64,000 nt of DNA. It comes from Microbacterium sp. GTDB taxonomy: Bacteria; Actinomycetota; Actinomycetes; Actinomycetales; Microbacteriaceae. The stretch spans positions 582,758-646,757 of the forward strand of contig NZ_JAFKIP010000002.1 of the NCBI RefSeq assembly GCF_017305435.1, given 5' to 3'. Under the pieces are notes generated by a model. The model saw nothing but the letters and a program-made list of their open reading frames with translations. It was not told the DNA's origin and made no database searches. This document shows, in pieces, positions 1 through 30,221 of this stretch. Both the position numbers and the translations under genes were made by a program. The first letter of the stretch is position 1; every line of letters begins with the position of its first letter.

Positions 1-132
1 TTTCGGTGACGCCGTTGCGCGGGCGGTGTCTCCGGTGCGGAGCGCCCGGAGGCCGGTCATGGGCACTATGGCGATGGGGCCGATGATGAAGACCGCGGTG
101 GCGACGTGCAGGATGCTGAACAGAAGGTCCAA
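1..132 (-). CDS. Small membrane protein, 3' end outside the window (partial)
   Basis: The reading frame starts at a TTG (132-130) seven bases after an AAGGA ribosome site and stays open to the left edge, giving 44 residues. The visible N-terminus (LDLLFSILHVATAVFIIG) is a hydrophobic helix and looks like the first segment of a DUF2269-type or similar integral membrane protein. It lies 27 bp downstream of the ABC ATPase gene on the same strand, so it is probably the last gene of the exporter operon. No function can be assigned; the family guess rests on the first helix only. Confidence 0.5.
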   Translation of the reverse strand, partial: MDLLFSILHVATAVFIIGPIAIVPMTGLRALRTGDTARATASPK

Positions 133-5170: not shown

Positions 5171-6943
5171 CTATCCCCGCCGCAGTTGTTCCTCGACTCG
5201 AGCCCGTTCAGCGCGAAGTTCTGCAGCGTCGGACCGGGCAGTCCATTCGCGCATGCGCGTGACGATCGGCGGCGCCGACCTCAGCAGCAGGAGCGCCGTG
5301 CCGTACGGCAGCGTGCGAATCACGTCGGGCGGCATGATCGGAACCCGGCGCGTTGATCGCTGGTTAGAGCGCATACCGCGTTCACCGATCGTGATCGAGT
5401 CGGTGGCCTCGTCGCGGTCGCCAATCAGGGTGGCGATGTCTTGGAGGTCTCTAGACCCTGAGGCGCCGCCGAGCACGATCTTGGCGATGCTCGCGTCCCA
5501 GATCGCCGTGGCTGCGTTGTCGCCCCACCGCTGACGGGCCTGCGCGAGCGACTGAAGCACCGGCATCGTGGTGACACCGGTGCCTCCACCTTCGGCCATC
5601 AGGACAGGCAGCGACGGCAGAGGGGCGAGGTTGCCGATCTCATCCAGCGCGAGAAGCAGCGGCGGGTCGAGGCGGGCGCCTGGGGATCTCGCGGCAACGC
5701 GCCTCGCGGTTTCGACGAGGTCTTCGACCAGCGCGGCGACGAGCGAGGAGGATGCGCCGGCGCCGGCGCCCGTCGCGAGAAGGTACAGGGTGCCGTTGCG
5801 TCGAAGAAAGGTCTCCGGATCGAACTGCTCGTCCTCGCTCGGGCTGACGGCGTCGAGAACACGGGGGTCAGCCAGAGCCGCCAACGCCAGGGAGACGCCC
5901 TGCCAGATCGAGTCGCGCGTGCGGGGGTCGGCGTCGATCATCGCCTCAAGCGACTCGGCCCATCCCGTCGCGGCCGCAGGATTGGACGTGAGGATCGCGA
6001 CGGCATCCTTCGCCGCGGCCGGATCGAGCGTCCAGCGAAAGAGCTCACCAGGTGAGCGGCCGTCGAGCGCCGCGGCGTGCAGCAGCGACTGAAGGGCCGT
6101 ACGGGTCTTGCCCTCCCAGAAGCCGCCGTTTTCCACCCCAACGCTCGACAGGCCCGTACCGGCCGCAAGCCCCGCGGCGCGAATCATCGCGGTTAGTGGG
6201 AGCTCGCAGCCGCGTACCGGAGACCACCGCAAGCCCGCCGGTACGCCCGGGGCAAGATGCTGTGGATCGAACACGGCGACGGGCCCTCGACTCATCCGCG
6301 AGCGAATGGTGGTCGTGAGGTTGTCCGGCCTGGTGGAGGTCGTGACGACGGCGCCAGGTGCGTCGAGGATCGCGTTGATGACGACGTGGGCGCCCTTGCC
6401 CGACCGGGGAGGGCCAATGACGAGGATCGAATCCTCAACCGACGTCCACACCTTCGTTCCTCGCGCCACTCCCACGAGGTAGCCGACGTCCTCGCATCGC
6501 GGCTTGTCGACGGACGCGCGAAGGTGGGCAGCGCGCTTCAGCAACGCGCGATCGGAGGCAGCGCGGCGCACGTCGGCCGCGGTCGCGATTCCGGCGATCC
6601 TGTTCGGGTCGGATCGGGAATGACGAGTGTGGTTTCGGATGACGCGCCAGACCCACCACCCCGAAACGCTGAGCAGCGCCACAAACGCCACGACGACAGC
6701 CCAGTACGCCACGGCGTTGAGCCCAGGAGATCCGAGTGCCGCCCCCGGGTCAGCGGGGGAGCCGAAGACACCGAGCCCCGCGGCCAGACCACCTGTCGGC
6801 TGCTCCGCTCCTGATAGGAAGGCGGCGAGATTGCCGCCCACACGAAGGATGCCGGCGATCGCAACGGCCCCGCTGACAGCGAGCAACGCGACGTTGGTCA
6901 GCCCGTCAGGACCGGAGACACCGACACCGTGGGGACCCGTCAT
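5171..6943 (-). CDS. Type IV coupling protein, VirD4/TraG family
   Basis: 590 residues. Two N-terminal membrane helices (about 15-35 and 78-100) anchor a cytoplasmic AAA-type ATPase. Walker A is GPPRSGKG (177-184) and Walker B is LLLALDEIGNLAPLPSLP, followed by the family signature GGTGVTTMPVLQSLAQARQRWG, a TraM/TraG recognition-type region. This ATPase docks the relaxosome to the mating channel and pumps DNA. The start is ATG 6943, which overlaps the upstream stop by 4 bp; an in-frame ATG 21 bp further upstream is less likely. No relaxase gene is visible in the window, so its substrate is encoded elsewhere or is unrecognised. Confidence 0.92.
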   Translation of the reverse strand: MTGPHGVGVSGPDGLTNVALLAVSGAVAIAGILRVGGNLAAFLSGAEQPTGGLAAGLGVFGSPADPGAALGSPGLNAVAYWAVVVAFVALLSVSGWWVWRVIRNHTRHSRSDPNRIAGIATAADVRRAASDRALLKRAAHLRASVDKPRCEDVGYLVGVARGTKVWTSVEDSILVIGPPRSGKGAHVVINAILDAPGAVVTTSTRPDNLTTTIRSRMSRGPVAVFDPQHLAPGVPAGLRWSPVRGCELPLTAMIRAAGLAAGTGLSSVGVENGGFWEGKTRTALQSLLHAAALDGRSPGELFRWTLDPAAAKDAVAILTSNPAAATGWAESLEAMIDADPRTRDSIWQGVSLALAALADPRVLDAVSPSEDEQFDPETFLRRNGTLYLLATGAGAGASSSLVAALVEDLVETARRVAARSPGARLDPPLLLALDEIGNLAPLPSLPVLMAEGGGTGVTTMPVLQSLAQARQRWGDNAATAIWDASIAKIVLGGASGSRDLQDIATLIGDRDEATDSITIGERGMRSNQRSTRRVPIMPPDVIRTLPYGTALLLLRSAPPIVTRMREWTARSDAAELRAERARVEEQLRRG

Positions 6944-7530
6944 GCGACGATCCCGAAAACACACGTGCCGGAGATTCTCCCCACGAGGACAATCTCGCCC
7001 TCGGCGGTCACGCGGCAGAGCCCCGGTTCCAGCAACGCTCGAGCGGACCCGTCCGCAGAAGCCTTGATGTGACGCACGATGATCGCTAGGGCTACCTCTT
7101 CACCCGGGAGGAATCCCTCTTCGCCGTATACAACGCGAGGCGGCTCGATCAAGGGCGTCGCATCTATGAGTGCTGCGGGTGCGGCCGGTGGCCCCGCCTG
7201 AGCGCTCGACCCTGCGTCCCGGACCTGCGGCGGCGCACTCGGGGCGACCGAGCCTTGCAGCGGCCGGGTGATGAGATCGGTAAAGATCGTGCCGTCTGCC
7301 TCGTGGACGACGACCCGCACCGGCGACCCGCGAGCGAGCAGGACCGTGTCTATGACTTCCGCAAAGGACGCGCGGGCCCAGGGTGCCCCGAACCGAGGCG
7401 GTTCGAACGGCGTCCCATCGACGGCGACGGTCATCGTGCCGTCCGCCGAGATCGTCATGGTGATCACGGGAAGGACCGCTGGCACGCGGATCGCGTCGGT
7501 GGATCGTCGTAAAGCGTGCGCTGTCGTCAT
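6940..7530 (-). CDS. Conserved hypothetical protein of the conjugation operon
   Basis: 196 residues with no membrane segment. The N-terminal half (about 15-85) is beta-rich (VITMTISADGTMTVAVDG) and resembles proteins found between VirB4 and VirD4 genes in actinobacterial conjugative elements. A Pro/Ala-rich linker (about 95-125) separates it from a C-terminal part. The gene overlaps both neighbours by 4 bp, so translation is coupled to the VirB4-like ATPase and VirD4. A role in coupling or regulating transfer is possible, but nothing in the sequence proves it. Confidence 0.65.
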   Translation of the reverse strand: MTTAHALRRSTDAIRVPAVLPVITMTISADGTMTVAVDGTPFEPPRFGAPWARASFAEVIDTVLLARGSPVRVVVHEADGTIFTDLITRPLQGSVAPSAPPQVRDAGSSAQAGPPAAPAALIDATPLIEPPRVVYGEEGFLPGEEVALAIIVRHIKASADGSARALLEPGLCRVTAEGEIVLVGRISGTCVFGIVA

Positions 7531-9500: not shown

Positions 9501-9555
9501 TGCGTGTCCCTTGCAACAGAAGTCGTCAGTCAGGTGCGCGAGGTGTCCCCGCGCG

Positions 9556-11019
9556 TCATACGGTTCGGCACAGGGGCAGCGCGGCGACGGTGAACGCTTG
9601 CGCCTGCTGACCCACGAGCCTCCGTGTTTCGCAGGCAGCTTGCACGGCGGCCTGCTCGATCGCCGCGACTGCGGCATCCAGCTCGTCGACGCTCGGCGCC
9701 GACACCGCTACGAGACCGGTGAAACGCAGCACGCCGTGACCAGCCGTGAGGTCTGACTCTTGCTGCACGACGTCGTTGTATTCGGCGGTTCGCGCGGCAT
9801 CCTCGATCTGCCCGACCTTCGCCCGCTGCGCGGCATCCGAGAGAAGTCCTACCTTCTTTCTCCTGATGTCTCGCGCGGCGAGGTCGGCACGTACCGGTGT
9901 GCACGTCAGAGTGAATGTGCGTTGGATGCCCGAGGTCAGCAGCAAGGGGGAGAGGAAGCCTGGGTACACCTGTGACCTCGGCCACTCCGAGATCCAGAGA
10001 ACCGCGTGGTGGGCCGAGTCGGTACGCAGCCGGTCCCAGGTTTCGGAAACTGCGATGGGGCCGGCCGTTGCGAGAGATCGACCGATGTCCCCGTGTCTCT
10101 CGAGCGCGGGAGCGGCTGCGGGATCGTATGCGGAGCGCAGCACGACCGCGACCTCGCCTGGGCTCAGCCAGCCTGTGGGCGTTAGGTCGGCTGCCCGCAG
10201 TGCTGCCACGAACGTCGTCATCTCCTGACGCAGTACGCTCGCGGCCCCCTTCATGCCACCCCCGGCGGCGCGGATCTGGCGGGCCGCCGCGCGCATGTCG
10301 AGCGCGAGGGCGATTGTCGTCTCATGCCGTTCGCCGGCAGGGCCGGCGCGCTCAATGAGCTCCTTGTACGTGACGGCGGGCCAAGAGTCATCGTCGACGC
10401 CATGCCGGGCCCACCATTCGGCGAGCCCGCTTCCGGAGCTGGGCACTGTGCGCTCGGAGATCTGCACGCGCGCGATGCGGCCCGACCGGCAGACCGTCCC
10501 GAGCACTCGCCCCCAGCCGGCCACCCGACGCTCCTGTTCGCCGCTGTCGAGAAGAACGAACGCCGGATGCGTGATGCCGGCGATTACCGTCAGGGTCTGG
10601 GCATGAGGGTCTTGGATCATGGCGGCGCCCGTCTCGGGGTCGACCCACTCGCGGAGCGCGGCGGCGTCGCCGGGGAGTGCGAGCGTGCCCGCGGGGCGCG
10701 GCTTGACCAAGTCCGCGCGGAATCGCAGCTGCCCGCCGATGCTTCGCCACACCCAGCGGATAGAGATCGGCACCCACTCAATGAGCTTCCGACCACCCAC
10801 GGGAACGAAGGCAAGAGCGACGCTCGTCACCCAGATCGGTGACGTGAGGCCGAAGAGGATGCCGCCGCCCATGTACACCGCACTCGTGAATGCGACTAGC
10901 CCGACGGCGAGTGTCACGAGCTGTGCCACGGAGAGGCCGAGCATCACGCCCCGCTTGGACAGACGCGAGAACTGAACCGGGTGCAGTTGGTTTGCGCGCG
11001 GGGCGTTGTTCGCTGTCAT
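9556..11019 (-). CDS. SCO6880-family conjugation protein
   Basis: 487 residues. Two adjacent N-terminal membrane helices (about 30-75, GLSVAQLVTLAVGLVAFTSA and following) precede a large cytoplasmic domain with the WVPISIRWVWR segment typical of PrgI-like/SCO6880 proteins. In actinobacteria this protein occupies the VirB3/VirB4-N slot of the mating machinery, before the VirB4-like ATPase. The ATG overlaps the stop of the VirB6-like gene by 4 bp. Assignment is by domain order and gene neighbourhood; the biochemical role is not established. Confidence 0.8.
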   Translation of the reverse strand: MTANNAPRANQLHPVQFSRLSKRGVMLGLSVAQLVTLAVGLVAFTSAVYMGGGILFGLTSPIWVTSVALAFVPVGGRKLIEWVPISIRWVWRSIGGQLRFRADLVKPRPAGTLALPGDAAALREWVDPETGAAMIQDPHAQTLTVIAGITHPAFVLLDSGEQERRVAGWGRVLGTVCRSGRIARVQISERTVPSSGSGLAEWWARHGVDDDSWPAVTYKELIERAGPAGERHETTIALALDMRAAARQIRAAGGGMKGAASVLRQEMTTFVAALRAADLTPTGWLSPGEVAVVLRSAYDPAAAPALERHGDIGRSLATAGPIAVSETWDRLRTDSAHHAVLWISEWPRSQVYPGFLSPLLLTSGIQRTFTLTCTPVRADLAARDIRRKKVGLLSDAAQRAKVGQIEDAARTAEYNDVVQQESDLTAGHGVLRFTGLVAVSAPSVDELDAAVAAIEQAAVQAACETRRLVGQQAQAFTVAALPLCRTV

Positions 11020-12365
11020 GCTGTCGTCCTCTCGCGCGGAGTCGGCATCGGTCGCGGGGCCGGGGTCTGTGTGCGCGGCTGTGGGACCGGTTGCCCTGCA
11101 GCTGGCGAGACCGTCGGTGCCGGTGGCATGTCTGCCGGAATGGCACCCTCGGCATGTCCCATGGCTGTTGATCCGGTGGCGTTGCCGAGCTTGGGTCCGA
11201 CGGAGGCAGCCTTGCCGACCACCTGACCGCCGACGATGACTGCGGCGGCCGGGCCGGCGGCCGCCGCAGCGCCTGAAGTTCCTGCGCCGGACGCTGCTGC
11301 ACCAGACGCACCCGCGCTGGCACCAGATCCAGGGGTGTTGGCAGCGGCGCTCGTCGCCACCGGGGGCGCCGACCCACTCGAGGCGCCACCTCCGTCGAGG
11401 ATCGACTTCGCCGACTTCGCGCTCGCGGGGCTCACTGGCACGGGGACGGGCCGATTCAGCGCGCCCTTAGCCTCCTGTTCAGTCGACATCGCGTGGTACA
11501 TATCGACGCCGACGAACGAGATGAACTTGTAGGTCATGTATGGCGCGAAGGCTGCGACGAGCATGAGTACGACTCCGGCCACGGGATCGCTGATGGAGGC
11601 GAGATCAAGGTCGATCGGCGCCGCGGTCTGGTTGATCGCGACGAGGAAGAGGACGACAAGCACGAGCTTGGAGAACACGAGGGCCACAACGAACGCCACC
11701 CACTTGCCGAACCAGCCGCGAGTGGCATCCCAGGAGAATCCGGCCAGTGCGATCGGCGCGAACACGATCGCCACCAGGAGCAGGGCTTTTCGGATGAGGA
11801 GCGAGAACCACACAATCGCGGTGGCTGCGATCGCGAGTCCTGCGAGGAAGATCGTCATGATCGCGCCGACGCCGGGGCTCGCGATGTTGATCGCGACCAG
11901 GCCGGCGGCCATCAGGGCGATTCTGTCGCCCATTCCCTCCATCGTGTTTCCGGTTGCCTGGACGATCCCGATGGCCAGCTGATCCGTGACCTCCAGCAGC
12001 GTCGCCGTCAGGGCGATTGCGACGAACGATCCGAGCACGGACTTGCCGAGCCCCACAGCAGCCCGGGAGAGCGCAGTCGGATCGCGATGCGCCAATCCGG
12101 TGATCAGTTGCAGGCAGAAGAACACGAGCATGACGAAGAGCGCGACGCCGAAGAGCAGGTTGTACACCTGGGTGTACTGGTCACCGGTGACGTCGACGAG
12201 GGTGGTCGTGTCGAACACCGCCCAGACGGCTTCGAAGAACCACGCGGCGGCTGCGGCGAGCGTATGGGCGAGCCAATCGAAGGGCGCGGCAACGAGCGAC
12301 GTGACACCCGACCCGACGGTCTGGCACACCTCGGCGATCGCCGGGATATCGCAGACTCCGCCCAC
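11016..12365 (-). CDS. VirB6/TrbL-like polytopic conjugation channel protein
   Basis: 449 residues. A short periplasmic N-terminus with Cys5 and Cys14 leads to at least six hydrophobic helices between about 45 and 290 (for example LLFGVALFVMLVFFCLQLI and AFVVALVFSKLVLVVLFLVA). A long low-complexity tail rich in Ala, Gly, Ser and Pro (about 320-449) follows. This layout is that of the TrbL/VirB6 inner-membrane channel component of type IV secretion. It sits between the pilin-like genes and SCO6880, as expected. The tail probably lies in the cytoplasm and is disordered. Confidence 0.85.
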   Translation of the reverse strand: MGGVCDIPAIAEVCQTVGSGVTSLVAAPFDWLAHTLAAAAAWFFEAVWAVFDTTTLVDVTGDQYTQVYNLLFGVALFVMLVFFCLQLITGLAHRDPTALSRAAVGLGKSVLGSFVAIALTATLLEVTDQLAIGIVQATGNTMEGMGDRIALMAAGLVAINIASPGVGAIMTIFLAGLAIAATAIVWFSLLIRKALLLVAIVFAPIALAGFSWDATRGWFGKWVAFVVALVFSKLVLVVLFLVAINQTAAPIDLDLASISDPVAGVVLMLVAAFAPYMTYKFISFVGVDMYHAMSTEQEAKGALNRPVPVPVSPASAKSAKSILDGGGASSGSAPPVATSAAANTPGSGASAGASGAAASGAGTSGAAAAAGPAAAVIVGGQVVGKAASVGPKLGNATGSTAMGHAEGAIPADMPPAPTVSPAAGQPVPQPRTQTPAPRPMPTPRERTTA

Positions 12366-14227: not shown

Positions 14228-14911
14228 TCACCGGAGCGGGTTGTCGACCTCGGAGAGCCGGAGCAGGCGGCATTCGTCGAAACTCGGCTCGCAGGCGATG
14301 AAGAGTGTGAACGCGATCGGTCGAGACGTCTCCTGAGCCTGCGTCCCCACGATGCCGGAGCGATGGCGTGTTCCCGTGATCGTGTACGCGATGGTCCCGG
14401 GGAGTAGTTGACCAGGTGCCGCTTGATCGACCGCGTCGCTCCAGGATGCCGGCACGAACGCCTCGTCGATGGTCAGCCACTGGCGCGTGCCGTAGCTGCG
14501 CAGCGTCAACCACGCCTCCGCCGTCGGCAGATAGGTGCGAACATCGGAGACGAGCCCGGCGGTCTCAATACCAGAGGGATCCCCTGCGTCGACGATCACC
14601 TGTGCGTAGTCGGCCGGATCGAAGTCCGTGGTGGAGTCCCAATTGACGAGCGCGCCTGCTGCTTCGCGCGCGAAGGCCTCGGCATCCGATGTCGAGCGGA
14701 TCGGGGGGAGCGTTGCGCTCGAGGCGCTCGGTTTAGGGCTGACGTTCGAGGCAGCCGGGGCCGGCGGCTCGACCTCAGTCGTCGGAGTGCTGGGCGACGG
14801 TGCCAGTACAAGTCCGTACAAGCCAACGCCGACAAGTGCCGCCAGCACACCGAACCCGATCGAGAGGAAAAGGACGAGGCGCCGCCGGGGGCGCAGCGCG
14901 GCGATCATCAC
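14228..14911 (-). CDS. Membrane-anchored VirB8/TcpC-like conjugation protein
   Basis: 227 residues. A single N-terminal membrane helix (about 13-35) is followed by a Pro/Ser/Thr-rich stalk (36-70) and a globular extracytoplasmic domain (about 75-227). This topology matches VirB8/TcpC proteins with NTF2-like folds that scaffold Gram-positive mating channels. The primary sequence has no diagnostic motif, so the assignment rests on topology and position. The ATG overlaps the stop of the ParB-like gene by 4 bp. Confidence 0.65.
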   Translation of the reverse strand: MMIAALRPRRRLVLFLSIGFGVLAALVGVGLYGLVLAPSPSTPTTEVEPPAPAASNVSPKPSASSATLPPIRSTSDAEAFAREAAGALVNWDSTTDFDPADYAQVIVDAGDPSGIETAGLVSDVRTYLPTAEAWLTLRSYGTRQWLTIDEAFVPASWSDAVDQAAPGQLLPGTIAYTITGTRHRSGIVGTQAQETSRPIAFTLFIACEPSFDECRLLRLSEVDNPLR

Positions 14912-15918
14912 GCGATCTTCCGTCCCCGCTGGACACGTGCGCTGCGGAGCGCCGCGAAGAACTCGACGGTCGAAGCGAGCGTCGCTTCGAACTGCTCGAG
15001 TTGCTCGTCCGTCAGTTCAGTAGCCACAGCTGCGACATCGAAATGGGTCCACCAGAGATCCAGGTCTTCCCACACACGCACGAACGCGCGGACGGGAAAG
15101 ACGTGTGCCGTATCACCACGAGACCTGGATGGCCGCCGGCCGCGCTTCGCCTCCTTGACTCTCGCAAGAGCCGCGTTTGCCAATTGCTCGAGTTCGTCGG
15201 GCGGCTCGAAGTCCTCGGGTGCTTCGAAGTCCTCGAACTGTTGTGGCGGTTCCGGCTCGAGGAGTTGCCGGATTCGCGCGTGCGACGCGGCGACACTTCC
15301 TCCCTCGTCGATGAGCCGCAGTTCTTCGCTCGCCTTCTCCTTCAGTGCAGGGTCGGCGCCGGGGTCAGCGACAACGCGCTGCAGTTCGGCGATGCGTTCC
15401 AGCGTGGTGTATGACGCCTTTCCGGTGACCATCTGGGCTGCCTGGGTGCGACTCTTGCCTGACTTGAATTGCGGTGGTGCCACGGTGGCACCACCGTCTT
15501 TTCCATCCCGGGAATCCGGACGGCTGAAACGCGTCGCGGACTGCCGGCGAGTCGCGTCGTCGGCGATCTGATCCTTCAGTTCGGTGTACAGGGAGGCCGC
15601 CTCTGTCGGCGTGAGCGGCTTGTGGAGAAGGTTCTCGGCCTGCTCTGCCAACAGCTCGGCGAGCCGATCCGAGATCCCGGACCTCACCCACACCTTGATC
15701 GTCTTCTCGCCCAGCCGCTTCAGCGCTTCGAGCCGACGGGCACCGCACACCAGGACGCCTTCCGGTGTCACGGTGACCGGCTGGAGCAGTCCGTCGCGGG
15801 TGATCGACTCGGCAAGCTCATCGATGTCCCCGAATTCGGTACGGTGCCGCTTCCCGACGACGATCGACTCGATCGATCGTTCGAGCTCGATGTGGCCGAC
15901 TCTGGTTCCCACGGTCAC
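14908..15918 (-). CDS. ParB/Spo0J-like N-terminal nuclease-domain protein
   Basis: 336 residues. The ParB/Srx domain covers about 8-100, with the RHRTEFGDIDELAESI segment and the box VLVCGARRLEALKRLG. A central helical KorB/ParB-like part (about 100-220, with SGKSRTQAAQMVTGK) follows, then an acidic Glu/Pro/Phe-rich linker (about 225-250) and a unique C-terminal domain. It may bind element DNA for partition or regulate the transfer operon. No parA lies next to it; a broken parA remnant is found 18 kb away, beside a different ParB-like gene. Confidence 0.85.
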   Translation of the reverse strand: MTVGTRVGHIELERSIESIVVGKRHRTEFGDIDELAESITRDGLLQPVTVTPEGVLVCGARRLEALKRLGEKTIKVWVRSGISDRLAELLAEQAENLLHKPLTPTEAASLYTELKDQIADDATRRQSATRFSRPDSRDGKDGGATVAPPQFKSGKSRTQAAQMVTGKASYTTLERIAELQRVVADPGADPALKEKASEELRLIDEGGSVAASHARIRQLLEPEPPQQFEDFEAPEDFEPPDELEQLANAALARVKEAKRGRRPSRSRGDTAHVFPVRAFVRVWEDLDLWWTHFDVAAVATELTDEQLEQFEATLASTVEFFAALRSARVQRGRKIA

Positions 15919-17241: not shown

Positions 17242-17894
17242 GACGTAACCTCCTTCTGAACCTCAGGTGTGCCGATCGTCCCCGCGAACCACCGGCCGAC
17301 TGTCGACGGATGAACTCCCGTGGCGCTCGCAATCTCCTTGTTCGACATCCCGCGCTGACGCATCAGCGCGGCAACGCTTCTACGGGCACCCTTCTCCGGA
17401 ACCTCGACCAGCGAGCGAACCGGAACGACTTCTGTGGACAGGTCTCGTGACGTCTCTGCTGTGGAGGAAACGTGAAGCCGGAATCGCTGGGTGAGAACGA
17501 CCGTCAGGTGAGTGATCGCGAGAAGCACCAGCGGCGGTACTGCGGCAACCGACGCTGCAAGCACGGGAAGAACATCGGCATCGGCCGCGACGACGGCATG
17601 GATCGAGTTCGCGGCGACCGATACGGCAGCGCCGATCATGAGCAGCATCCACGGATACCACGCACCCCGCTGTCCGGCGAGCGCGACGACGGCAACGGTT
17701 CCGACGACGATTATTCCGTCCACAATGAGCGGCCACGCCCACGCCTGCGTCGCCGCGATGCCGGACGCATGGGCGAGATCCGCGAGAGCGGTGAACGACA
17801 ACCAGAACGCACCGACAGCGATGAACACGGTGCCGACTACCGCGGTCCATACGGCAATCCGTCCTGACCGCGGCTCCGTCGTAGCGGGGATCAC
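17238..17894 (-). CDS. SpdB-like DUF2637 membrane protein with C-terminal helix-turn-helix
   Basis: 218 residues. Four membrane helices (about 13-37, 47-70, 80-100 and 108-130) form the DUF2637 domain found in Streptomyces plasmid spread (Spd) and transfer loci. A cytoplasmic tail (about 160-210) carries a helix-turn-helix-like motif (MSNKEIASATGVHPSTVGRW). The combination suggests a membrane-tethered DNA-binding protein that could link intramycelial or cell-to-cell spread to element control. It overlaps both neighbours by 4 bp. Confidence 0.82.
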   Translation of the reverse strand: MIPATTEPRSGRIAVWTAVVGTVFIAVGAFWLSFTALADLAHASGIAATQAWAWPLIVDGIIVVGTVAVVALAGQRGAWYPWMLLMIGAAVSVAANSIHAVVAADADVLPVLAASVAAVPPLVLLAITHLTVVLTQRFRLHVSSTAETSRDLSTEVVPVRSLVEVPEKGARRSVAALMRQRGMSNKEIASATGVHPSTVGRWFAGTIGTPEVQKEVTS

Positions 17895-18784
17895 GAGATC
17901 ACCTGCCCGCTGAGCGAGCGGGATGCTGAGCTGCCACCACTGATGCGAAAGGGCGGCGTCTGCCCCACCACCGTTCGGTACGCAGACCGGATGGTCGTCA
18001 GGATCTCAGCCTGATGCAACCCCGCGTGCTCCGCAGCAGGCCCGAGTAGGTTGCGCGCGCTCTGATCAGTGACGCCGTTCTCGGCGAGCCGGCATGCGGC
18101 CCAGTACAGGGCGCGGTTCCGCTCGCCCTCAGCCCGTGCGGCCAGCCACGCCGCGAGACGCTCCGCGTCAACATCGCGGCGTGTCTCCACAGGCCTCGTC
18201 GCAGCAGGGGTCGGCCTCGGGTCGAGAAACTGTCGAAGCGCTGATCCGTCGATTGACACGGCGTGCCCGCGTCCGGCGCCGATCAGCTCATACGCAGACC
18301 GGTTGCCTTCGAAAAGCACTTGCGACGGCGGCACGATGACGTAGCCGCCCTCACCCCGGAAGTCGATGCCGGCGCGGGCGGCCTGCCACGATGCCTGAAC
18401 GCGATCAGGGTCTGCGGGGTAGTAGGCGTGCATCCCACCGGATGCCGTCTTCACCAGCGCCTGCCAGCGATCCACGAGACCTTCCCGGCGAGCGAGCTCG
18501 AAGGCAGCGAATCCGCGCACCCGCCCGTGCACATCGATGTCTACGACCTCGACGGCGGAAGCTCGCCCGGTCGGCATGCCGATGTTCGCTTCGGGCCATC
18601 GAGACCACCATCGGGCGATCTGGCGGTCGTCGGAGGTCGCGTCGCGGAACCCGTGCTCTGTGAGCGGCCGCTTCTCCGCTGGCTTGCAGGGGAAGATCGG
18701 GACTCCTGCCGCAGCGAATCGAGCGGCGCCTTCCCGCGGCGAGAGGCCGATCATTCCGGCGAACAGGGCGAGGGTGTCCATCAC
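17891..18784 (-). CDS. Bifunctional DNA primase/polymerase (prim-pol)
   Basis: 297 residues. The AEP prim-pol domain spans about 15-205, with the motif IFPCKPAEKRPLTEHGF, the catalytic acidic pair in VEVVDIDVHG, the GGMHAYY histidine motif and GIDFRGEGGYVIVPPS. A shorter helical C-terminus (about 210-297) resembles the primase C-terminal domain. It probably primes synthesis of the complementary strand after transfer or during element replication. No helicase domain is fused, so it is shorter than many plasmid prim-pols. Confidence 0.9.
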   Translation of the reverse strand: MMDTLALFAGMIGLSPREGAARFAAAGVPIFPCKPAEKRPLTEHGFRDATSDDRQIARWWSRWPEANIGMPTGRASAVEVVDIDVHGRVRGFAAFELARREGLVDRWQALVKTASGGMHAYYPADPDRVQASWQAARAGIDFRGEGGYVIVPPSQVLFEGNRSAYELIGAGRGHAVSIDGSALRQFLDPRPTPAATRPVETRRDVDAERLAAWLAARAEGERNRALYWAACRLAENGVTDQSARNLLGPAAEHAGLHQAEILTTIRSAYRTVVGQTPPFRISGGSSASRSLSGQVIS

Positions 18785-19881
18785 AGATCCCGGGCCGAGA
18801 ACGCTGATTCGGGGGACGAGTTCCGAACCCTCACGCGGCGGACATCATCGAACTGTTCCACCGGGCCAGCAACGAGAGTCTGAAGTGCACCCCGCTGCGC
18901 TTCCCTCGTCAGACCCGGAGGGTCGCCCGAGCCGACTTGCATCGTGCGCAGCCCCTTGAGGATCGCGACCGCTGCCGTGCGGACTCGCTCACCGGTCGCT
19001 TGCACGACTTCCACCGGCGTCTTTCCCTCGACGGATGTTGCCCATGTCGCCACATACGGGATCGTGTAGCCCGATGTGTCGAGGCCGTGGGCCGCTCCGA
19101 TCATCAGAGCAACGGACTCCGCTTCGACTTCCCCGATCCCGCGGTGGAGTACGGCATCGGCGTTGTCAGGGCCGTGCAGCATCACGTGCGCCAGCTCGTG
19201 CGCCAAGGTCTTCGCACGCGCCGCGGGGTCTATGTCACCCCGAATGGCAACGCTTCGAGTGAGGTAGTCGGTCATGCCGTTGGCTCCGCCGAGAGCGCGA
19301 TCGCTCCCAACAATGCGCAGCGTGTACCCGTGTTCGCGTACGAGGGATGCAAGACCATCCCAGAGACCCTGTGGCGCCTCGCCCGCGAGCAAATGCGGAG
19401 TGTGGGCATGGGGGATCGGGACACCGCTCGTCTGCGAGGCATCCCATACGTATGCGGGCCGCACGCCCACCATCCGCGTGCGCACTTCGTCGTTGCGTCT
19501 CGGGGTCTCGCGAGGCGCAAGACGACGCCATGACTCGGCGACGTGTGGGGTGGGGGAGGCGAATCGCGCGAGGATCGGCGCAAAGATCAGGTAGCCGGTC
19601 TGGCCGCGGGCGACCGACCTCCCAAGCGTGCGCCATTGCCGGAACCCCGCGACGTACGTCGGCGTGGGCTCAGCGACCCTGCCCTGCTCGAACGCAGCAA
19701 GGTGCTGCACCCAGATGAGCATGGTGTTGTTGAACGAACGAGAGCGGAATCGCGCGGCGAACTCAAGAGCCTGCACCCAGTCGTTGCCCGTCACGAGCGT
19801 GCCCACGGCATCCGCCAGCTGAGCGTGCAGCCGTTCGAGCTTCGCCTCAGTGGAACCGACTGCGGGGGGTTGGTGTGTCAT
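18781..19881 (-). CDS. ArdC-like antirestriction protein with metallopeptidase motif
   Basis: 366 residues. The N-terminal ArdC-type ssDNA-binding domain spans about 15-125 (WVQALEFAARFRSRSFNNTM). A zincin domain carries HExxH in KTLAHELAHVMLHG (about 225-240) with a downstream glutamate (GEVEAESVA). ArdC proteins protect incoming conjugative DNA from host restriction. It is the first gene of the 16-kb leftward operon, behind a strong AAGGAGG ribosome site, which fits early expression in a recipient. Its promoter region carries the phased palindromes at 20111-20214. Confidence 0.87.
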   Translation of the reverse strand: MTHQPPAVGSTEAKLERLHAQLADAVGTLVTGNDWVQALEFAARFRSRSFNNTMLIWVQHLAAFEQGRVAEPTPTYVAGFRQWRTLGRSVARGQTGYLIFAPILARFASPTPHVAESWRRLAPRETPRRNDEVRTRMVGVRPAYVWDASQTSGVPIPHAHTPHLLAGEAPQGLWDGLASLVREHGYTLRIVGSDRALGGANGMTDYLTRSVAIRGDIDPAARAKTLAHELAHVMLHGPDNADAVLHRGIGEVEAESVALMIGAAHGLDTSGYTIPYVATWATSVEGKTPVEVVQATGERVRTAAVAILKGLRTMQVGSGDPPGLTREAQRGALQTLVAGPVEQFDDVRRVRVRNSSPESAFSARDL

Positions 19882-20140
19882 GGCGTGGGCACCTCCTTCT
19901 GATCAGCCGACAGAGCGGCTTCCTGTGGGAGGTACGCGCGATCTCACCGGAGCCGATGGGCGAGCGCGCGAACGACCGACCCGAGACGGTCGCATAACTG
20001 TTCACGCTCGCGCGGGGCGGCTTCACGAAATTCGGGCGCGCCCGCAGGCCGGCTGTGTGGGGGTGGAGTGCCGACAAGTCCTCTGTACCGTCCCCGGCGA
20101 TGACCTCCTCTTTGAGCATGCTCAAATGGCTTTGGAGTTG

Positions 20141-20169
20141 TTTCTAGCACCGACATTGATCATGCGCAA
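20141..20169 (-). promoter_or_regulatory. Predicted promoter of the conjugation operon
   Basis: On the minus strand a -35-like TTGCGC (20169-20164) and a -10-like TAGAAA (20146-20141) are separated by 17 bp. The -35 lies inside the degenerate palindrome 20155-20170, so occupancy of that site would block sigma access. Hexamers are only moderate matches to consensus. Confidence 0.45.
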
Positions 20170-20172
20170 CGG

Positions 20173-20201
20173 TTGATTTGAGCATGCCCAACGGGTACGT
20201 T
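20173..20201 (+). promoter_or_regulatory. Predicted promoter of the regulator-ImmA-DUF6545-hydrolase operon
   Basis: TTGATT (20173-20178) and TACGTT (20196-20201) are spaced by 17 bp. Palindrome three (20177-20192) fills the spacer and palindrome four (20199-20214) covers the -10 end and start point, a classic repression geometry. The transcript would have a leader of about 70 nt before ATG 20281. Confidence 0.5.
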
Positions 20202-20280
20202 GAGCATGCTCAACGCCCGTCGACGGGCGCTCACAAACGACAAGCCTTGCCTCACCCGAGGGGAAGGGTGGTCTACCGAA

Positions 20281-20703
20281 ATGACAGAAGACGAGAGCAA
20301 AGTGGCCGCGGAAGACCTCGCGAAACGCCTCAGGCTGCTTCTCGACGTCGCGATCACCGAGTCGGGTTCCGAACCGACCTACGCCCAGATCGCGGCGTTC
20401 CTCGAGAAGCGTGGGATCAACCTGTCGAGATCTCGATGGACATATATGGTCAACGGTCACCGCTACGTGCAAGACCCCGCGCTATTCGAAGGGCTCGCTG
20501 CGTTCTTCGACGTGGATGCCGCGTTCCTGCTCGGGGAGGACGGCGCAGCGACCCCGGACAAGGTCACCGCGCAGCTGGATCTTGTGCGAGCGATGCGAGC
20601 CGCGAAGGTGAAGTCCTATGCCGCGCGCACGCTGGGAGATATCTCCCCGAAGGCCCTTCAGGCGATCAGCAGATTCCTGGATGAGGAAATGACACACACC
20701 TGA
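20281..20703 (+). CDS. XRE/EspR-like helix-turn-helix regulator
   Basis: 140 residues. The helical N-terminal domain (about 20-85) includes SEPTYAQIAAFLEKRGINLS and RSRWTYMVNGHRYVQDPALF, an XRE-type helix-turn-helix of the sort found in EspR-like actinobacterial regulators. A helical C-terminal region (about 95-140) may dimerise. I chose ATG 20281, downstream of a GA-rich region; an upstream in-frame TTG lies inside palindrome four and is rejected. It is the first gene of the rightward operon and probably binds the palindrome array, controlling itself and the conjugation operon. Confidence 0.78.
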   Translation: MTEDESKVAAEDLAKRLRLLLDVAITESGSEPTYAQIAAFLEKRGINLSRSRWTYMVNGHRYVQDPALFEGLAAFFDVDAAFLLGEDGAATPDKVTAQLDLVRAMRAAKVKSYAARTLGDISPKALQAISRFLDEEMTHT

Positions 20704-20768
20704 GCAGTGCCCTTGCCGGTCCGTTGTGACCCCCCACCGGCACATGCTCCCCGGACGGGAGTGACATC

Positions 20769-21233
20769 GTGAATATCGAGCAGACCGTGCCGACGGCCGT
20801 CGCAGACCTTGCGCTGGGTAGCACCTTCACCTTTGACGATCTCGTTGGGGCAATCCAGGATCACCGGCAGCGCACACTCCGAATCGTGGAACTTGCGGAT
20901 CTCGGCGACCACGATGGCATCTGCGCGGTGTGGCTCATCACCGAGAACGAAGACCTCGTCCTTCACGCGCACAGCGACTCCGTCCTCCATCGCCAGCAGT
21001 TCGTCCTGCACGAGTTCGCCCACATGATCCTCGGGCATGGAGAAGACGACGAATGTTCGACGGAAGACTTCCTGCTTCCCGACATCCCCGCCCGGACTCG
21101 GCGTCGACTACTCACTCGTCAAGATTTGGACTCTCACACCGAGATCGCGGCGGAGGCCTTGGCTGATCATCTCGCTGCGGCGATCAGAGGATCGGTGTAC
21201 GGCGAATCGCGCTACCTCGAGATCTTCGGGTGA
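20769..21233 (+). CDS. ImmA/IrrE-family metallo-endopeptidase
   Basis: 154 residues from GTG 20769. The zincin motif HEFAHMILGH (about residues 81-90) matches the ImmA/IrrE (COG2856) family, with a distal acidic residue in EIAAEALADHLA. In ICEBs1 and phages, ImmA cleaves an XRE repressor to trigger excision or induction. Here it lies 65 bp after an XRE-like gene and directly before a membrane protein, so cleavage of the 20281 regulator is the natural hypothesis. No substrate evidence is present in the sequence itself. Confidence 0.85.
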   Translation: MNIEQTVPTAVADLALGSTFTFDDLVGAIQDHRQRTLRIVELADLGDHDGICAVWLITENEDLVLHAHSDSVLHRQQFVLHEFAHMILGHGEDDECSTEDFLLPDIPARTRRRLLTRQDLDSHTEIAAEALADHLAAAIRGSVYGESRYLEIFG

Positions 21234-22252
21234 TGCAGACCTTCGTCGCGGTGCTGATGTGGCTGCTCGTGGCGAGCCTGCTCATCTTGCGCCGCGGACG
21301 AGCCGAGCGGAGCATCACCTACGCGGCGATCACGATCGCGGTCGCGATGACGATCAACGTCGATGCGGTCTACCGCTTCATCGATGCACTCCTCGGCGGC
21401 TCGAATGTCGCCACCCTCATCGGGGACTGCGCGCTCATGGTCGGGATCTTCTTCCTTGGCCGAGGGATCATGAAAGCGGGGGAGTATCAGCCCGGCCCAG
21501 TTCGCATTGCGCTGGGCCCCGTTGCCCTCCTGGTTGCGCTGAGCGGCGTCGGGATCGCCTTTCTGCTCATCGACCGTGGCGCCACGACGACCAACTTCAT
21601 GATTGATCTCGGAGCGCAGCCTGCCGCAGCTGCGTACTCCATGATCCAGTTCACCTACTACGGGATCGTCGTTGGCACCATGGCAGTCCTCGCGAGTCGC
21701 CAGTATCGGCTGAGCGTTGGTCTACAGCGTCTGCCGGCCGGCTGTCTCGTCGTCGGCGCGATCCTCGGAGTCGCTCTCTGTGTCGTCGTCCTCATCATGG
21801 ACATCGCACACCTTTCCGGGCGTGCAGACGTGATGGCTGACGTGTCTATCGCGTATGGACCGCTTTACATGTTGACCTTCCTCTTCCTCTGCGTCGGACT
21901 CGCTGGGCAGCCGACAGCGCGCTACCTGAGCGCGCGCCGGAGGGCAGCGCGAACACGCACGCTCATCAAGGAACTGTCGCCCGCATGGCGAGCGGCGACG
22001 ATCGTTCGCCCGGGATTGAGTCAGACGGATGCCGCGTCCGTGCAAACCGATCGCCTCGAGGCGCAGCTGCATAGACAGGTCGTAGAGATTCGCGACGCGA
22101 TGATCGACCCGCGCGTGTCGTTCTCTCTCAGCGCAGATGACCGTCTCGTCCTTGAACGAGCGGAGCAGCATCTCCTCGGAACAGACGGAGCTCGACTTCA
22201 CCCGTCGTCTGCACCGGCCACACGGCGTAACTCTCAACGAGGGGCGGCATGA
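21233..22252 (+). CDS. MAB_1171c/DUF6545-type seven-helix membrane protein
   Basis: About 339 residues. Roughly seven hydrophobic helices lie in the first 235 residues (starting with MQTFVAVLMWLLVASLLILR). A cytoplasmic tail (about 245-339) contains the family-like segment HRQVVEIRDAMIDPRVSF. The layout matches the actinobacterial MAB_1171c (DUF6545) family, annotated only as putative transporter. ATG 21233 overlaps the protease stop (TGATG); GTG 21230 is an alternative. Coupled translation with the protease suggests a membrane sensor that controls it, but this is inference. Confidence 0.75.
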   Translation: MQTFVAVLMWLLVASLLILRRGRAERSITYAAITIAVAMTINVDAVYRFIDALLGGSNVATLIGDCALMVGIFFLGRGIMKAGEYQPGPVRIALGPVALLVALSGVGIAFLLIDRGATTTNFMIDLGAQPAAAAYSMIQFTYYGIVVGTMAVLASRQYRLSVGLQRLPAGCLVVGAILGVALCVVVLIMDIAHLSGRADVMADVSIAYGPLYMLTFLFLCVGLAGQPTARYLSARRRAARTRTLIKELSPAWRAATIVRPGLSQTDAASVQTDRLEAQLHRQVVEIRDAMIDPRVSFSLSADDRLVLERAEQHLLGTDGARLHPSSAPATRRNSQRGAA

Positions 22253-23403
22253 GAAACCCGATCGCGCTGGCAGGCGTGATGGCGGCCGCAGCGTCCCTAT
22301 CGTTGGGCCTCGGTTTGGTGATCACGCGGCGGCTGACCGCCCCTCCAGGCCCGCGCCGGTTCGAACTGGCCATCCGTGCTGTCGAACAAGATGGCGACCG
22401 GCGAGCAATCGTGCTCGATCGAACGCATCAAACTGAGTCCCCAGGTGAGTTTACTCTGCTGTTTCGAGGAGGCCAGTGGGTGCAGCTGTCTGCCGAGGTG
22501 CTTGATCGCGGGCCTCGGCGCCTCGCACGTGAAGTGACGGCAACTGCACCGGGCTTCACGCCGTCAGCCGACGAGCCCGCATCCTGGAGCGGCATCTACT
22601 TCATGACGCCCGTCGATGCGGGCCTCAGCGCCTACGACATTGCCATCCCCACTCCGTCGGGGCCCGCGCCAGCGTGGCGTATCGGTCGCAGCGACTCGCA
22701 GTCAACGAGGTGGGCAATCCACATCCATGGGCTCGGCAGCCCGCGAGCCGGAACACTGCGCGGTGTGCAAGTCACCACCGAGCTGGGCTACACGTCCCTC
22801 GTCGTCAGCTACAGGAACGATAGCGAAGGCCCAAGGCGCGGAACTGGTCGGTCAACCCTCGGCGCCACTGAAGTCGACGACGTCGACGCTGCGATCCAGT
22901 ACGCCATCGATCAGGGCGCGCGTCGCGTCGTTCTCTTCGGCTGGTCAATGGGAGCACAGGTCGCACTCCAACTCGCTGCACGGCCGCGTTACGGGCGGCT
23001 GATAGCCGGGCTCGTGCTTGAGTCGCCCGTTCTCGACTGGGTCGCGACGATCAAGGCGAACTGCGCTCGCGCCGGGCTGCCCGCCGCGGCAGGGCTCCTC
23101 GCCATCCCGTGGCTCACATCGCCTTTGCTCGCGCGCGCAATCGGCCTGCCCGGCACCATCCCTCTCGGCGATCTCGACTGGATCGCACGCGCGCAGGAGC
23201 TGGCAGCCCCTACTCTGATCCTCCACGGAACGAACGACGGCTCGGCGCCGTCGGCCCTCTCTCGCGAGCTCGCAGTGCTGCGTCCAGATCTCGTTCAACT
23301 CGAAATCTTCGACTCAGATCACACGATGACGTGGAACTCCGACCGAGAGCGTTGGCGGTCCACTGTTGCTGCCTGGCTTACTGCCAAGGTGACAGCTGAC
23401 TAA
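22249..23403 (+). CDS. Membrane-anchored alpha/beta hydrolase
   Basis: 384 residues. An N-terminal hydrophobic segment (about 5-27) would anchor or export the protein. The alpha/beta-hydrolase domain (about 150-380) shows the oxyanion-region HIHGLGS, nucleophile elbow GWSMGA (Ser catalytic), acid in HGTNDGSAPS and histidine in DSDHTMTW, a complete triad. It resembles alpha/beta hydrolases of the prolyl-oligopeptidase/esterase type. The ATG overlaps the membrane-protein stop by 4 bp, so it belongs to the same coupled operon. Substrate unknown; an envelope lipid or peptide is plausible. Confidence 0.82.
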   Translation: MRNPIALAGVMAAAASLSLGLGLVITRRLTAPPGPRRFELAIRAVEQDGDRRAIVLDRTHQTESPGEFTLLFRGGQWVQLSAEVLDRGPRRLAREVTATAPGFTPSADEPASWSGIYFMTPVDAGLSAYDIAIPTPSGPAPAWRIGRSDSQSTRWAIHIHGLGSPRAGTLRGVQVTTELGYTSLVVSYRNDSEGPRRGTGRSTLGATEVDDVDAAIQYAIDQGARRVVLFGWSMGAQVALQLAARPRYGRLIAGLVLESPVLDWVATIKANCARAGLPAAAGLLAIPWLTSPLLARAIGLPGTIPLGDLDWIARAQELAAPTLILHGTNDGSAPSALSRELAVLRPDLVQLEIFDSDHTMTWNSDRERWRSTVAAWLTAKVTAD

Positions 23404-26396: not shown

Positions 26397-26723
26397 ATGA
26401 CCACGAACGAGCGCACCGACCTGGGCCTGACCGACTCCGCCGCCGGATGCAGCTGCTGCGCCACGGCATCCGTCCCCGACACGCAGCCCGCCGCATCCAC
26501 GATCACCGCTGAGGTGCTGGTTGAGGGGATGACCTGCTCGCACTGCGTGATGAGCGTCACCGAGGAGATCTCCGCGATCGACGGTGTCGATAACGTCTCG
26601 GTCGACCTGAAGGCCGGCGGAACCTCACGGGTCACGATCCACAGCGCCGAGCCGATCGATGCCGCACGCGTGCGGGCCGCGGTAGAGGAGGCGGGGTACG
26701 CCCTCGCCGGCACACCCGCATGA
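26397..26723 (+). CDS. CopZ-like copper chaperone with Cys-rich N-terminus
   Basis: 108 residues. A Cys-rich N-terminal stretch (GCSCCATAS, about 17-25) precedes one HMA domain (about 38-105) with the metal motif GMTCSHC. Such small HMA proteins hand Cu(I) to CopA. The N-terminal CSCC cluster is an extra potential thiolate site, also seen in some actinobacterial members. It overlaps the copA start by 4 bp. Confidence 0.9.
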
Positions 26724-28993
26724 GCACCGTCGATGTGGACCTCGATATCTCGGGGATGACCTGCGCATCCTGCGCGACCCGGATCGAGCGCAAGCTCAAC
26801 AAGATCCCGGGGGTGGAGGCGACGGTCAATTACGCGACCGAGAAGGCGCGCGTGCACGCCGACGGCGTGGAGACGGCGCAGCTGATCGCGGCGGTCGAAT
26901 CCGCCGGCTACTCCGCGGCGCTTCCCGCGCCGATCATCGATGAGTCCACATCGGCCGCAACACCTGCCGACGACGTCGAGTTGGTTACCCTGCGCCGCCG
27001 GCTGCTGATCAGCACGGCCCTGGCCGTGCCGGTCGCGCTGATGTCGATGATCCCGTTGCTGCAGTTCACGAACTGGCAGTGGCTCGCGCTGACCCTGACC
27101 GCGCCGGTCGCGGTGTGGGGCGCCTGGCCGTTCCACCGTGCCGCGTTCGTGAATGCCCGCCACGGCGCCGCGACCATGGACACGCTGATCAGCCTCGGGG
27201 TGATCGCCGCATTCGGGTGGTCGCTGTATGCGCTGTTCTTCGGGATGGCGGGGATGCCGGGCATGCACATGACCTTCACCCTCTTCGGCAGCCCGGAAGC
27301 GGGAAGCGGGGAGATCTACCTGGAAGTCGCCGCCCTCGTCACGGTGTTCATCCTCGCCGGCCGGTACGCCGAAGCCCGGGCGAAGAAGTCTTCTTCCGAG
27401 GCGTTGCGCGCCCTGCTCGAACTCGGCGCCAAGGACGCCACGCGCCTCGTCGGCGGGGTGGAGCAGCGTGTTCCGGTCGCACAGCTTGCCGTCGGGGACC
27501 GGGTGCTGGTGCGCCCCGGCGAGAAGATCCCCTCGGACGGGCTCGTCGTCGACGGCGCCTCGGCGATCGACGCCAGCATGCTGACCGGGGAATCCGTGCC
27601 GGTCGAGGTCACCGTCGGATCCCGCGTCGTGGGCGCCACCGTGAACGTTGGCGGACGCCTGATCGTCGAGATCACGAGGGTCGGGGCGGACACGGAGCTG
27701 GCGCGGATGCAGCGGCTGATGGATGACGCTCAGACCGGCAAGGCGCGCGTGCAGCGTCTCGCCGACCGGGTCTCGGCCGTGTTCGTTCCGATCGTGATCC
27801 TCCTGGCGATCGTCGCTTTCGTCGGGTGGATGCTGGTCGGTGGGTCCGTCGAGGTCGCGTTCACTGCTGCGGTGGCGACGCTGATCATCGCCTGCCCGTG
27901 CGCGCTGGGCTTGGCCACTCCGACCGCGCTGCTGGTCGGCACCGGACGCGGGTCACAGCTGGGCATCCTCATTCGTGGGCCGCAGGTGCTTGAGCAGACC
28001 CGTCAGGTCGACACGATCGTGCTGGACAAGACCGGAACCATCACCCAGGGCGCGATGACCGTCACCACCGTCTCGGCGGCGCCCGGCGTTACCGATGACG
28101 AGTTGCTGCGGATCGCCGCCGGCGCGGAGTGGGGATCCGAACACCCCGTCGCGCGGGCCATCGCGAGCGCTCATGGTGGCGCGGCACCGGTGGCGGAGTC
28201 GTTCGCGTCGCACGCCGGGTTCGGCGTCCAGGCCGTTCTGGAAGGCTCGCTCGTCGTGGCTGGACGCCCGGAGTGGGTGGAGGACCAGTGGTCCGTTCAT
28301 CTGCCGATCCGTTTTCGCGGTGAGGCTGAGGTGCTGGAGGCTGCTGGGGGCACGGTGATCGCGGTCGCCCGCGACGGGGACTTCCTCGGCATCGTCGCGG
28401 TCTCCGACACCCTCAAGCCCACCAGCGCGGACGCGATCGCCCGATTCCGCGCCCTGGGCCTGCGTCCCGTGCTGCTCACGGGCGACAACGCCGGCGCCGC
28501 CGAGCACATCGCGGGGCTGGTCGGCATCGATGAGATTCGGGCTGGGGTCACCCCCGCAGGAAAGCTCGACGCCATCCGGCAGCTGCAATCCGCGGGGCGT
28601 GTGGTGGCGATGGTCGGTGACGGTGTGAACGATGCCGCCGCCCTCGCCGCGGCCGACCTCGGCATCGCGATGGGGGGCGGGACGGACGCCGCCATCGCCG
28701 CCAGCGACGTAACCATCGCCTCCGGCGATCTCCTGGTTGTCGCGGATGCGATCCGGCTGTCGCGCCGGACGCTGGGCACCATCAAGGGCAACCTGTTCTG
28801 GGCGTTCGCGTACAACATCGCCGCGATCCCGATCGCGATGCTCGGCCTGCTCAACCCCCTGGTTGCCGCCGCAGCGATGGCCCTGTCGTCGGTGTTTGTG
28901 GTGACCAACAGCCTCCGCCTGCGGCGGTTCCGCCCAGCGTCGGCGCCGACGGTGCCGACCGCACCCGTGGCGCGAGAACCGCAGCACGTTTGA
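26720..28993 (+). CDS. copA: Copper-exporting P1B-type ATPase CopA
   Basis: 757 residues. One N-terminal HMA domain (GMTCASC, about 9-16) is followed by the P-type core: TGES actuator loop, CPCALG in the sixth helix, the phosphorylated aspartate in DKTGTITQG, an HP motif (SEHPVARAI) and [10 protein letters not shown]. The last helices carry YN and MALSS, the P1B-1 signature for Cu(I). It pumps Cu(I) out of the cytosol. It ends the csoR-copZ-copA operon, just before a strong hairpin. Confidence 0.95.
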
Positions 28994-28995
28994 GA

Positions 28996-29029
28996 CCTGG
29001 CGGCTGGCGGTTCCACGCCGGCCGCCAGG
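28996..29029 (+). terminator. Hairpin terminator after copA
   Basis: A 14-bp stem CCTGGCGGCTGGCG / CGCCGGCCGCCAGG, with one non-Watson-Crick pair and a 6-nt loop, starts 3 bp after the copA stop. There is no T-tract, as is usual for actinobacterial terminators. Confidence 0.7.
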
Positions 29030-29064
29030 GACGATTACCCTGAAGAGGAGGAGGTGAGTTCTCG

Positions 29065-29481
29065 ATGATCACTCTCGCGCAGCATCTGCGTCGCGGCCCT
29101 TCCGGGCTGGGTCATTCTGTGCTGTTGCTCATCGCCCTCACCGCCGCGCTCATCATCGGGCTGCTCGCCATGCACGCGCTGGCCGCCCCGACAGCCCACG
29201 CCGAGCCTGCCGCCGCCGTGTCCGTGCAGGAAGCCGGCGCCGCCCACGGCCACGATGCGCCACCGGCTGACGACGGTTGCCCGGACTGCGGGGGGCATGA
29301 AGCCATGCTCGCGATGGCGTGCGTCCTTGCCCTCCTGGTCGTATCGCTGCTTTTCCTCCTGCCCCGCGCTGGCGTCAGCTGGGGTGTCGTGTTCGGCCGG
29401 GCCGGACCCCTCATGGTCGCCGGCCGGGCAGCGCTGTCTCGACCACCCTCTCTTCTCGTTCTTTGCATCAGTCGAACGTGA
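29065..29481 (+). CDS. Small membrane protein, DUF6153-like
   Basis: 138 residues behind a strong AGGAGGAGG ribosome site. Two hydrophobic helices (about 15-40 and 75-98) flank a loop with HGHDAPPADDGCPDCGGHEA, which has His and a CxxC that could bind metal. A loosely similar two-helix protein is encoded at 53267-53686, again next to metal or thiol genes. The domain name is a tentative match to the DUF6153 layout. Function unknown; metal-linked by context. Confidence 0.65.
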   Translation: MITLAQHLRRGPSGLGHSVLLLIALTAALIIGLLAMHALAAPTAHAEPAAAVSVQEAGAAHGHDAPPADDGCPDCGGHEAMLAMACVLALLVVSLLFLLPRAGVSWGVVFGRAGPLMVAGRAALSRPPSLLVLCISRT

Positions 29482-29571
29482 TGGCAGCTCGCTGACCCGT
29501 TAAGGGCAGCCGAGCTTTCGCGCGCGATCACACCGATCGTGCGCGCCACACAGACGACTGAGGAGAACCAC

Positions 29572-30165: not shown

Positions 30166-30171
30166 CCGTCA

Positions 30172-30200
30172 GGGGCCGGCCGCACCCGACGGCCGACCCC
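30172..30200 (+). terminator. Hairpin after the DUF305 gene
   Basis: GGGGCCGGCCG and CGGCCGACCCC pair with one mismatch around a 7-nt loop, 7 bp after the stop. It may terminate or attenuate transcription into the next gene, which starts only 22 bp later. Confidence 0.55.
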
Positions 30201-30221
30201 CGACCCAGGGAGACCGCCACC

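Follow-up and report, generated by a model that had tools for sequence, protein, structure and literature searches.

A conserved palindrome array beside an EspR-like regulator gene, a candidate off-switch for conjugation in Actinobacteria

Introduction

In ICEBs1 of Bacillus subtilis, and in TnSmu1 with its immR/immA pair, the element itself encodes a helix-turn-helix (HTH) regulator together with a partner metalloprotease, and transfer is off by default, as described in the portions available of PMC6540685 and PMC10233336. A different arrangement is described in the available sections of PMC6540685 for pLS20 and pCF10, where conjugation is repressed by a tetrameric regulator (RcoLS20 and PrgX, respectively) that binds two operators with looping of the DNA; in pLS20 the promoters concerned are divergent. 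Here we compare with these systems a locus in a 64,000-nucleotide stretch of Microbacterium sp. DNA (NZ_JAFKIP010000002.1, positions 582,758 to 646,757; hereafter the window), in which a conjugative element carries four palindromic sites between a leftward transfer operon and an operon beginning with the gene for an EspR-like HTH regulator at 20281.

EspR binds DNA cooperatively at multiple sites, with hundreds of binding sites and the consensus TTTGC[TC][GA], according to the part of PMC3315491 available. Among the literature matches listed, and judging by those entries, there was no account of how actinobacterial conjugative elements of the type IV secretion system (T4SS) kind are silenced or activated, and none of the switch treated here.

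Results and Discussion

The original prediction placed four palindromic sites at 20111, 20155, 20177 and 20199, and all four were recovered at these positions. We consider it likely, from the sequence comparisons set out below, that they are operators of the EspR-like protein and that this protein acts as a repressor. Two of the sites are perfect palindromes in the window: site 1 (TTTGAGCATGCTCAAA, 20111..20126; 16 bp), which stands apart as a putative isolated operator, and site 4 (GTTGAGCATGCTCAAC, 20199..20214). Sites 2 (ATTGATCATGCGCAAC, 20155..20170) and 3 (TTTGAGCATGCCCAAC, 20177..20192) are degenerate copies, and the start-to-start distances along the array are 44, 22 and 22 bp. A search for the 14-bp core with up to three mismatches returned four matches in the 64-kb window, all inside the array. 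Shuffled windows gave a mean of 1.40 such matches, and 6 of 100 shuffles reached at least four anywhere in 64 kb, so the number of sites is weak evidence by itself and the case is carried by their clustering, exactness and conservation. Genome-wide (3,498,495 bases) the perfect core occurs at two places, both in this array; allowing one mismatch adds site 3 and a single place on contig C4. By our own arithmetic, 3.5 Mb with equal base frequencies would be expected to hold about 0.01 perfect matches, and about 0.6 when one mismatch is tolerated.

The layout of the array is retained among close relatives. Scanning genome contigs with the regulator yielded 81 relatives, of which 80 were kept (67-99% identity), from hosts that by record title include Microbacterium, Leucobacter, Agromyces, Arthrobacter, Kocuria, Tessaracoccus and others; one locus (L038) begins 10 bases before the gene, leaving 79 to be scored. 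All were fetched by way of the regulator gene, and sites without the gene were sought solely in the present genome. When the 300 bp preceding the regulator were scored for sites with at most three mismatches, 69 of the 79 relatives showed one isolated site followed by three sites at 21-23 bp (the 1+3 layout), the other ten having 1+2 (five), 1+1+1 (two), 1+3+1, 1+1+3 or 1+1 (one each). At least two sites precede the regulator in all 79. The triplet is displaced by one 22-bp step in L071, L076 and L078, with the 1+3 layout retained. In the 69 loci the inner distances are 22 bp (102 cases), 23 bp (35) and 21 bp (1), and the outer distance is 43-47 bp in 66 and 66-67 bp in three. The original prediction held every distance to be a multiple of 22 bp; that is true of the window, but the inner and outer distances across the relatives make phasing a rule only within the triplet. 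The array thus combines one strong solitary site with three phased ones.

The frequency of the motif in other DNA had been named beforehand as one of the points on which the proposal could fail. The motif proved rare both elsewhere in the genome and in the relatives' loci, where sites with at most two mismatches number 299 upstream of the regulator, whereas the remainder of these loci, excluding the 400 bp ahead of the gene, has one in 727,025 positions. Removal of near-duplicates left 47 sequences including the window, 34 of which (again including the window) have the 1+3 layout with an outer distance of 43-47 bp. Over these 34 sequences the mean frequency of the commonest base is 0.947 in site columns, 0.45 in the outer flanks, and 0.50 and 0.57 at the two ends of spacer 1. 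Each core position of site 1 is kept in 33-34 of the 34, and the right half of site 2, GCGCAA, is fixed among the relatives; the right half of site 4 is often degenerate in them.

The sites had also been said to overlap the -35 and -10 elements of both operons. What stands of this is an overlap with conserved promoter-like blocks; a strict sigma-70 consensus scan of 19850-20850 gave no promoter (a strict terminator scan was likewise empty), and the promoter claim therefore rests on comparison of the relatives. The candidate regulator promoter is TTGATT-17-TACGTT (20173..20201, + strand; TTGATT at 20173-20178, TACGTT at 20196-20201), and in the alignment a TTGAT or TTGCG-like block follows site 2 and TA precedes site 4. 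In 34/34 sequences the pattern TTGnnn-16..18-TAnnnT is present in the 150 bp ahead of the regulator, against 39 of 13,196 random 150-mers from the loci, a contrast that supports the promoter rather than proving it, since the pattern was written after the alignment had been seen and the TTG within the sites themselves accounts for some of the excess. For the transfer operon the candidate is TTGCGC-17-TAGAAA on the - strand (20141..20169; TTGCGC at 20164-20169, TAGAAA at 20141-20146). Site 2 retains the G of TTGCGC in 34/34, and a GTTCTAACA-like block precedes site 2 in 27/34, by a pattern also written after the alignment had been seen. These conserved blocks would put sites 1 and 2 on the transfer promoter, with site 1 at about +9 to +24 of the predicted transcript, and sites 3 and 4 on the regulator's own promoter.

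The regulator (20281..20703, + strand, 140 amino acids) resembles EspR in sequence and predicted fold across its HTH and C-terminal helices; EspR is its best sequence match and gives the top fold matches. Its gene adjoins that of a putative M78 (ImmA/IrrE-type) metalloprotease (20769..21233, + strand; Pfam PF06114, E 0.0021, below the cut-off) with intact active-site residues, the HExxH motif and a downstream Glu being invariant in 47/47 sequences. The next two genes encode a predicted seven-helix membrane protein of the MAB_1171c family/DUF6545 with a C-terminal cytosolic part (21230..22252, + strand; NF042915, E 6.7e-26, 91.2 bits, cut-off 100), also examined by a structure model and fold comparison, and an alpha/beta hydrolase (22249..23403, + strand; assigned by Pfam) with an N-terminal hydrophobic segment and a Ser-Asp-His triad invariant in 41/41. 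The original prediction was silent on these three proteins. In 28 other loci with MAB_1171c-type proteins, a simple pattern scan found an adjoining frame with an M78-like HExxH in L136, L137, L143 and L145 and, more weakly, in L154. No relatives of the regulator turned up in a phage collection (E 1e-5). In the literature the 14-bp core and the terms "EspR-like" and "EspR homolog" were not found, a 12-bp part of the core occurred in five papers, all unrelated to judge by title and start of abstract, and MAB_1171c/DUF6545 appeared only in a knockout study (PMC8707978, available in part). The main text of a 2025 survey of XRE palindromes (PMC12565409) contains neither the string GAGCATGC nor CATG.

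In the mechanism that we favour, the 20281 protein on sites 1 and 2 would block the divergent transfer promoter, and on sites 3 and 4 it would limit its own operon. The members of the triplet, at 22-23 bp, share roughly one face of the helix, and neighbouring dimers would probably bind them cooperatively; site 1, the most exact, is separate from these and close to where the transfer transcript would begin. A signal received through the seven-helix protein would then lead the M78 protease to cleave the repressor, by analogy with ImmA and IrrE, and the hydrolase would make, alter or destroy that signal. Cleavage by the M78 protease, taken as a step by itself, is perhaps slightly more likely than not. 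We infer this binding, repression, cooperativity, cleavage and signalling from features that can be read directly: the sites and their conservation, the overlap with promoter-like blocks, the gene order, the catalytic residues and the change of palindrome flanks across cassette types described below.

The EspR-like protein could instead be an activator or a two-way regulator, not chiefly a repressor, but we regard this as rather unlikely. M. tuberculosis EspR is described, in the available part of PMC3315491, as a positive and negative regulator working through multimers and loops, and site 1 falls outside the core promoter. The other three sites, however, occupy positions typical of repression, site 2 holding the predicted transfer -35, site 3 spanning the spacer of the predicted regulator promoter and site 4 covering its -10 and start.

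The cassette recurs in more distant relatives. Searches with tblastn returned 59 plasmid records for the regulator, all below 60% identity, and 14 for the membrane protein; fifteen plasmid loci (L120-L134) were chosen by hand for diversity, 14 of them from the regulator's records and L132 from those of the membrane protein. Profiles made from the window family found the protease in 12/15, the seven-helix protein in 13/15 and the hydrolase in 5/15 (L121, L122, L128, L130, L132). According to the gene tables the regulator follows the membrane-protein gene in 12/15, precedes it in L126 and L128, and stands alone in L123. The fourth cassette gene of these loci is, as far as domain matches and annotation go, interchangeable among enzymes of lipid-type families. 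Pfam searches of ten candidate fourth genes gave alpha/beta hydrolases in L121, L122, L128 and L130, MpaB/Lcp oxygenases in L120 and L124, a FAD/geranylgeranyl-reductase-like protein in L125, PAP2-like proteins in L127 and L134 (below the cut-off) and no match in L129; L126 and L133 have genes annotated MpaB/DUF2236, and no fourth gene was recognised in L123 or L131. Some of these candidates lie on the other strand (L124, L125, L128). Several cassette-bearing plasmids are typed conjugative. Among 22 further genome loci, taken with 1.5-kb flanks, the protease was found in 16 and the membrane protein in 16.

The exact array of the window is absent from the distant relatives, which have only single or paired CATG-centred palindromes. 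When self-complementary cores in the 15 plasmid loci were extended to at least 6/7 pairs, with annotated genes alone defining coding DNA, palindromes in non-coding DNA numbered 18/141 for CATG against 35/1,808 for all 15 remaining cores (Fisher P 7e-9); the corresponding figures for coding DNA were 11/542 and 225/9,519 (P 0.73). A first version of this test (20/128 against 31/1,590) was set aside because gene borders in L126, L129, L130 and L132 had been edited by us after the sites were seen. Thirteen of the 18 non-coding CATG palindromes lie at the cassette or just behind the regulator, the other five being in L122, L124, L126 and L128 (twice), and ten of the 15 loci have such a palindrome at the cassette or behind the regulator, counting two at annotated gene starts (L126, L130). 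The GTAC-centred palindromes behind the regulator in L125 resemble a terminator stem. The palindromes differ by 4-6 bases between cassette types, and all differ from the window core by 5-7. Of 16 wider genome loci, three (L165, L166 and L168) have the TTAGACATGTCTAA type, and L170 has two CTTACATGTAAG-like palindromes before the hydrolase gene. The change of palindrome flanks with cassette type ties the operator to the regulator, in part of the family only.

This covariation bears on whether the sites might serve another protein, either a host regulator or a second HTH protein of the element, such as that at 17241, and merely adjoin the EspR-like gene. Another HTH protein is indeed encoded nearby, but the flanks vary with the cassette, and the sites accompany the regulator across several host families and are, in those loci, nearly confined to its upstream region; we therefore think this improbable. 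A reading of the array as a centromere- or iteron-like site, used by ParB or in replicating the excised element and overlapping promoters by chance, is very improbable: the 22-bp tandem repeats and the ParB and Prim-Pol genes of the divergent operon would fit, but six loci with no ArdC, Prim-Pol or DUF2637 match in the available flank (L067, L071, L076, L078, L079, L082; ParB was not searched there) keep the sites beside the regulator, and four distant plasmids have palindromes, differing by 0-1 bases, both ahead of the cassette and behind the regulator rather than in a single cluster.

Several observations weigh against the palindromes being operators of an ImmA-type repressor switch. The outer spacing varies by 4 bp, which speaks against a phasing of all four sites; the loci are related, which makes the P values optimistic; the M78 assignment falls under the Pfam cut-off; and the EspR consensus is not present in the four sites. 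Five of the 15 plasmid loci (L124, L125, L128, L131, L134) have no CATG palindrome of at least 6/7 pairs at the cassette, L128 having weaker ones only, and 12 of the 16 wider genome loci have none at the cassette.

The surroundings bear out the predicted conjugative-element setting. On the - strand, the first recognised gene of the divergent operon encodes an ArdC-like protein (18781..19881; PF08401, E 1.2e-6), and the same strand carries genes for a Prim-Pol primase-polymerase (17891..18784; PF09250, E 1.4e-32), a ParB-like protein (14908..15918; profile matches), an SCO6881-like T4SS protein (11016..12365; NF047967, E 1.6e-27, 96.5 bits, below the cut-off of 325), an SCO6880-family T4SS protein (9556..11019; NF042935, E 2.9e-133, above the cut-off) and a TraG/VirD4-type coupling protein (5171..6964). 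A VirB4-like ATPase at 7527-9677 (- strand) is apparently split over three overlapping frames, two of them with weak NCBIfam VirB4/TraC matches; the gene may be broken, the sequence may contain an error, or the frames may be genes in their own right. By eye, the divergent frames of L067, L071, L076, L079 and L082 resemble membrane or transfer genes. A tRNA-Ala gene (C6:579022-579097) and an integrase gene lie 2-4 kb left of the window. The exact 26-bp end of the tRNA-Ala recurs only in another complete tRNA-Ala on contig C1, so no right attachment site was recognised; the right end of the element was not found either. The relaxase families PF08751 and PF03432 have no match on contig C6; C1 has one PF08751 match, some 2 kb from its end, and C6 stops where the window stops, so the element may extend onto a different contig. 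The three closest loci remain homologous to the window as far as 23378-23381, close to where the hydrolase gene ends. The copies in Agromyces mediolanus and Sediminivirga luteola, 99.9% alike across 10.3-10.4 kb, argue for recent transfer. To the right of the cassette, open reading frames read by eye suggest metal-resistance-like cargo, with two long P-type ATPase-like frames at 26720-33640. The element is like RUSTI, an integrative and conjugative element of cheese Actinobacteria, in its tyrosine recombinase, Prim-Pol, VirD4/TraG-type transfer and tRNA insertion, as described in the available part of PMC5526665.

Conclusions

The array offers defined putative operators, a regulator and a candidate sensor, recurring in the 80 fetched loci and in plasmids with other gene orders, and the switch is compact enough for laboratory testing. 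A more speculative and doubtful extension is that the receptor-like seven-helix protein responds to a lipid-like small molecule by freeing the M78 protease to cleave the EspR-like repressor, and that the interchangeable enzyme (alpha/beta hydrolase, MpaB/Lcp-type oxygenase, FAD/geranylgeranyl-reductase-like protein or PAP2 phosphatase) is responsible for making or removing the signal; this would be a new form of cell-to-cell or envelope signalling controlling conjugation in Actinobacteria, and different elements would then use different signals.

Deinococcus DdrO/IrrE differs from this system in that it belongs to the radiation response and to no mobile element, and is not known to have a membrane partner. 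RcoLS20 of pLS20 and PrgX of pCF10 differ in being peptide-linked regulators of other families. EspR binds hundreds of genomic sites, whereas the perfect core here, judged by motif only, occurs at one locus in the Microbacterium genome. Compared with ICEBs1, the regulator is EspR-like over its length and has four sites in a 1+3 layout, and a seven-helix membrane protein and a hydrolase are found where ICEBs1 has RapI-PhrI. The switch would work like ImmR/ImmA and is a candidate member of that family; it is most likely an ImmR/ImmA-like off-switch with a different repressor and a membrane sensor.
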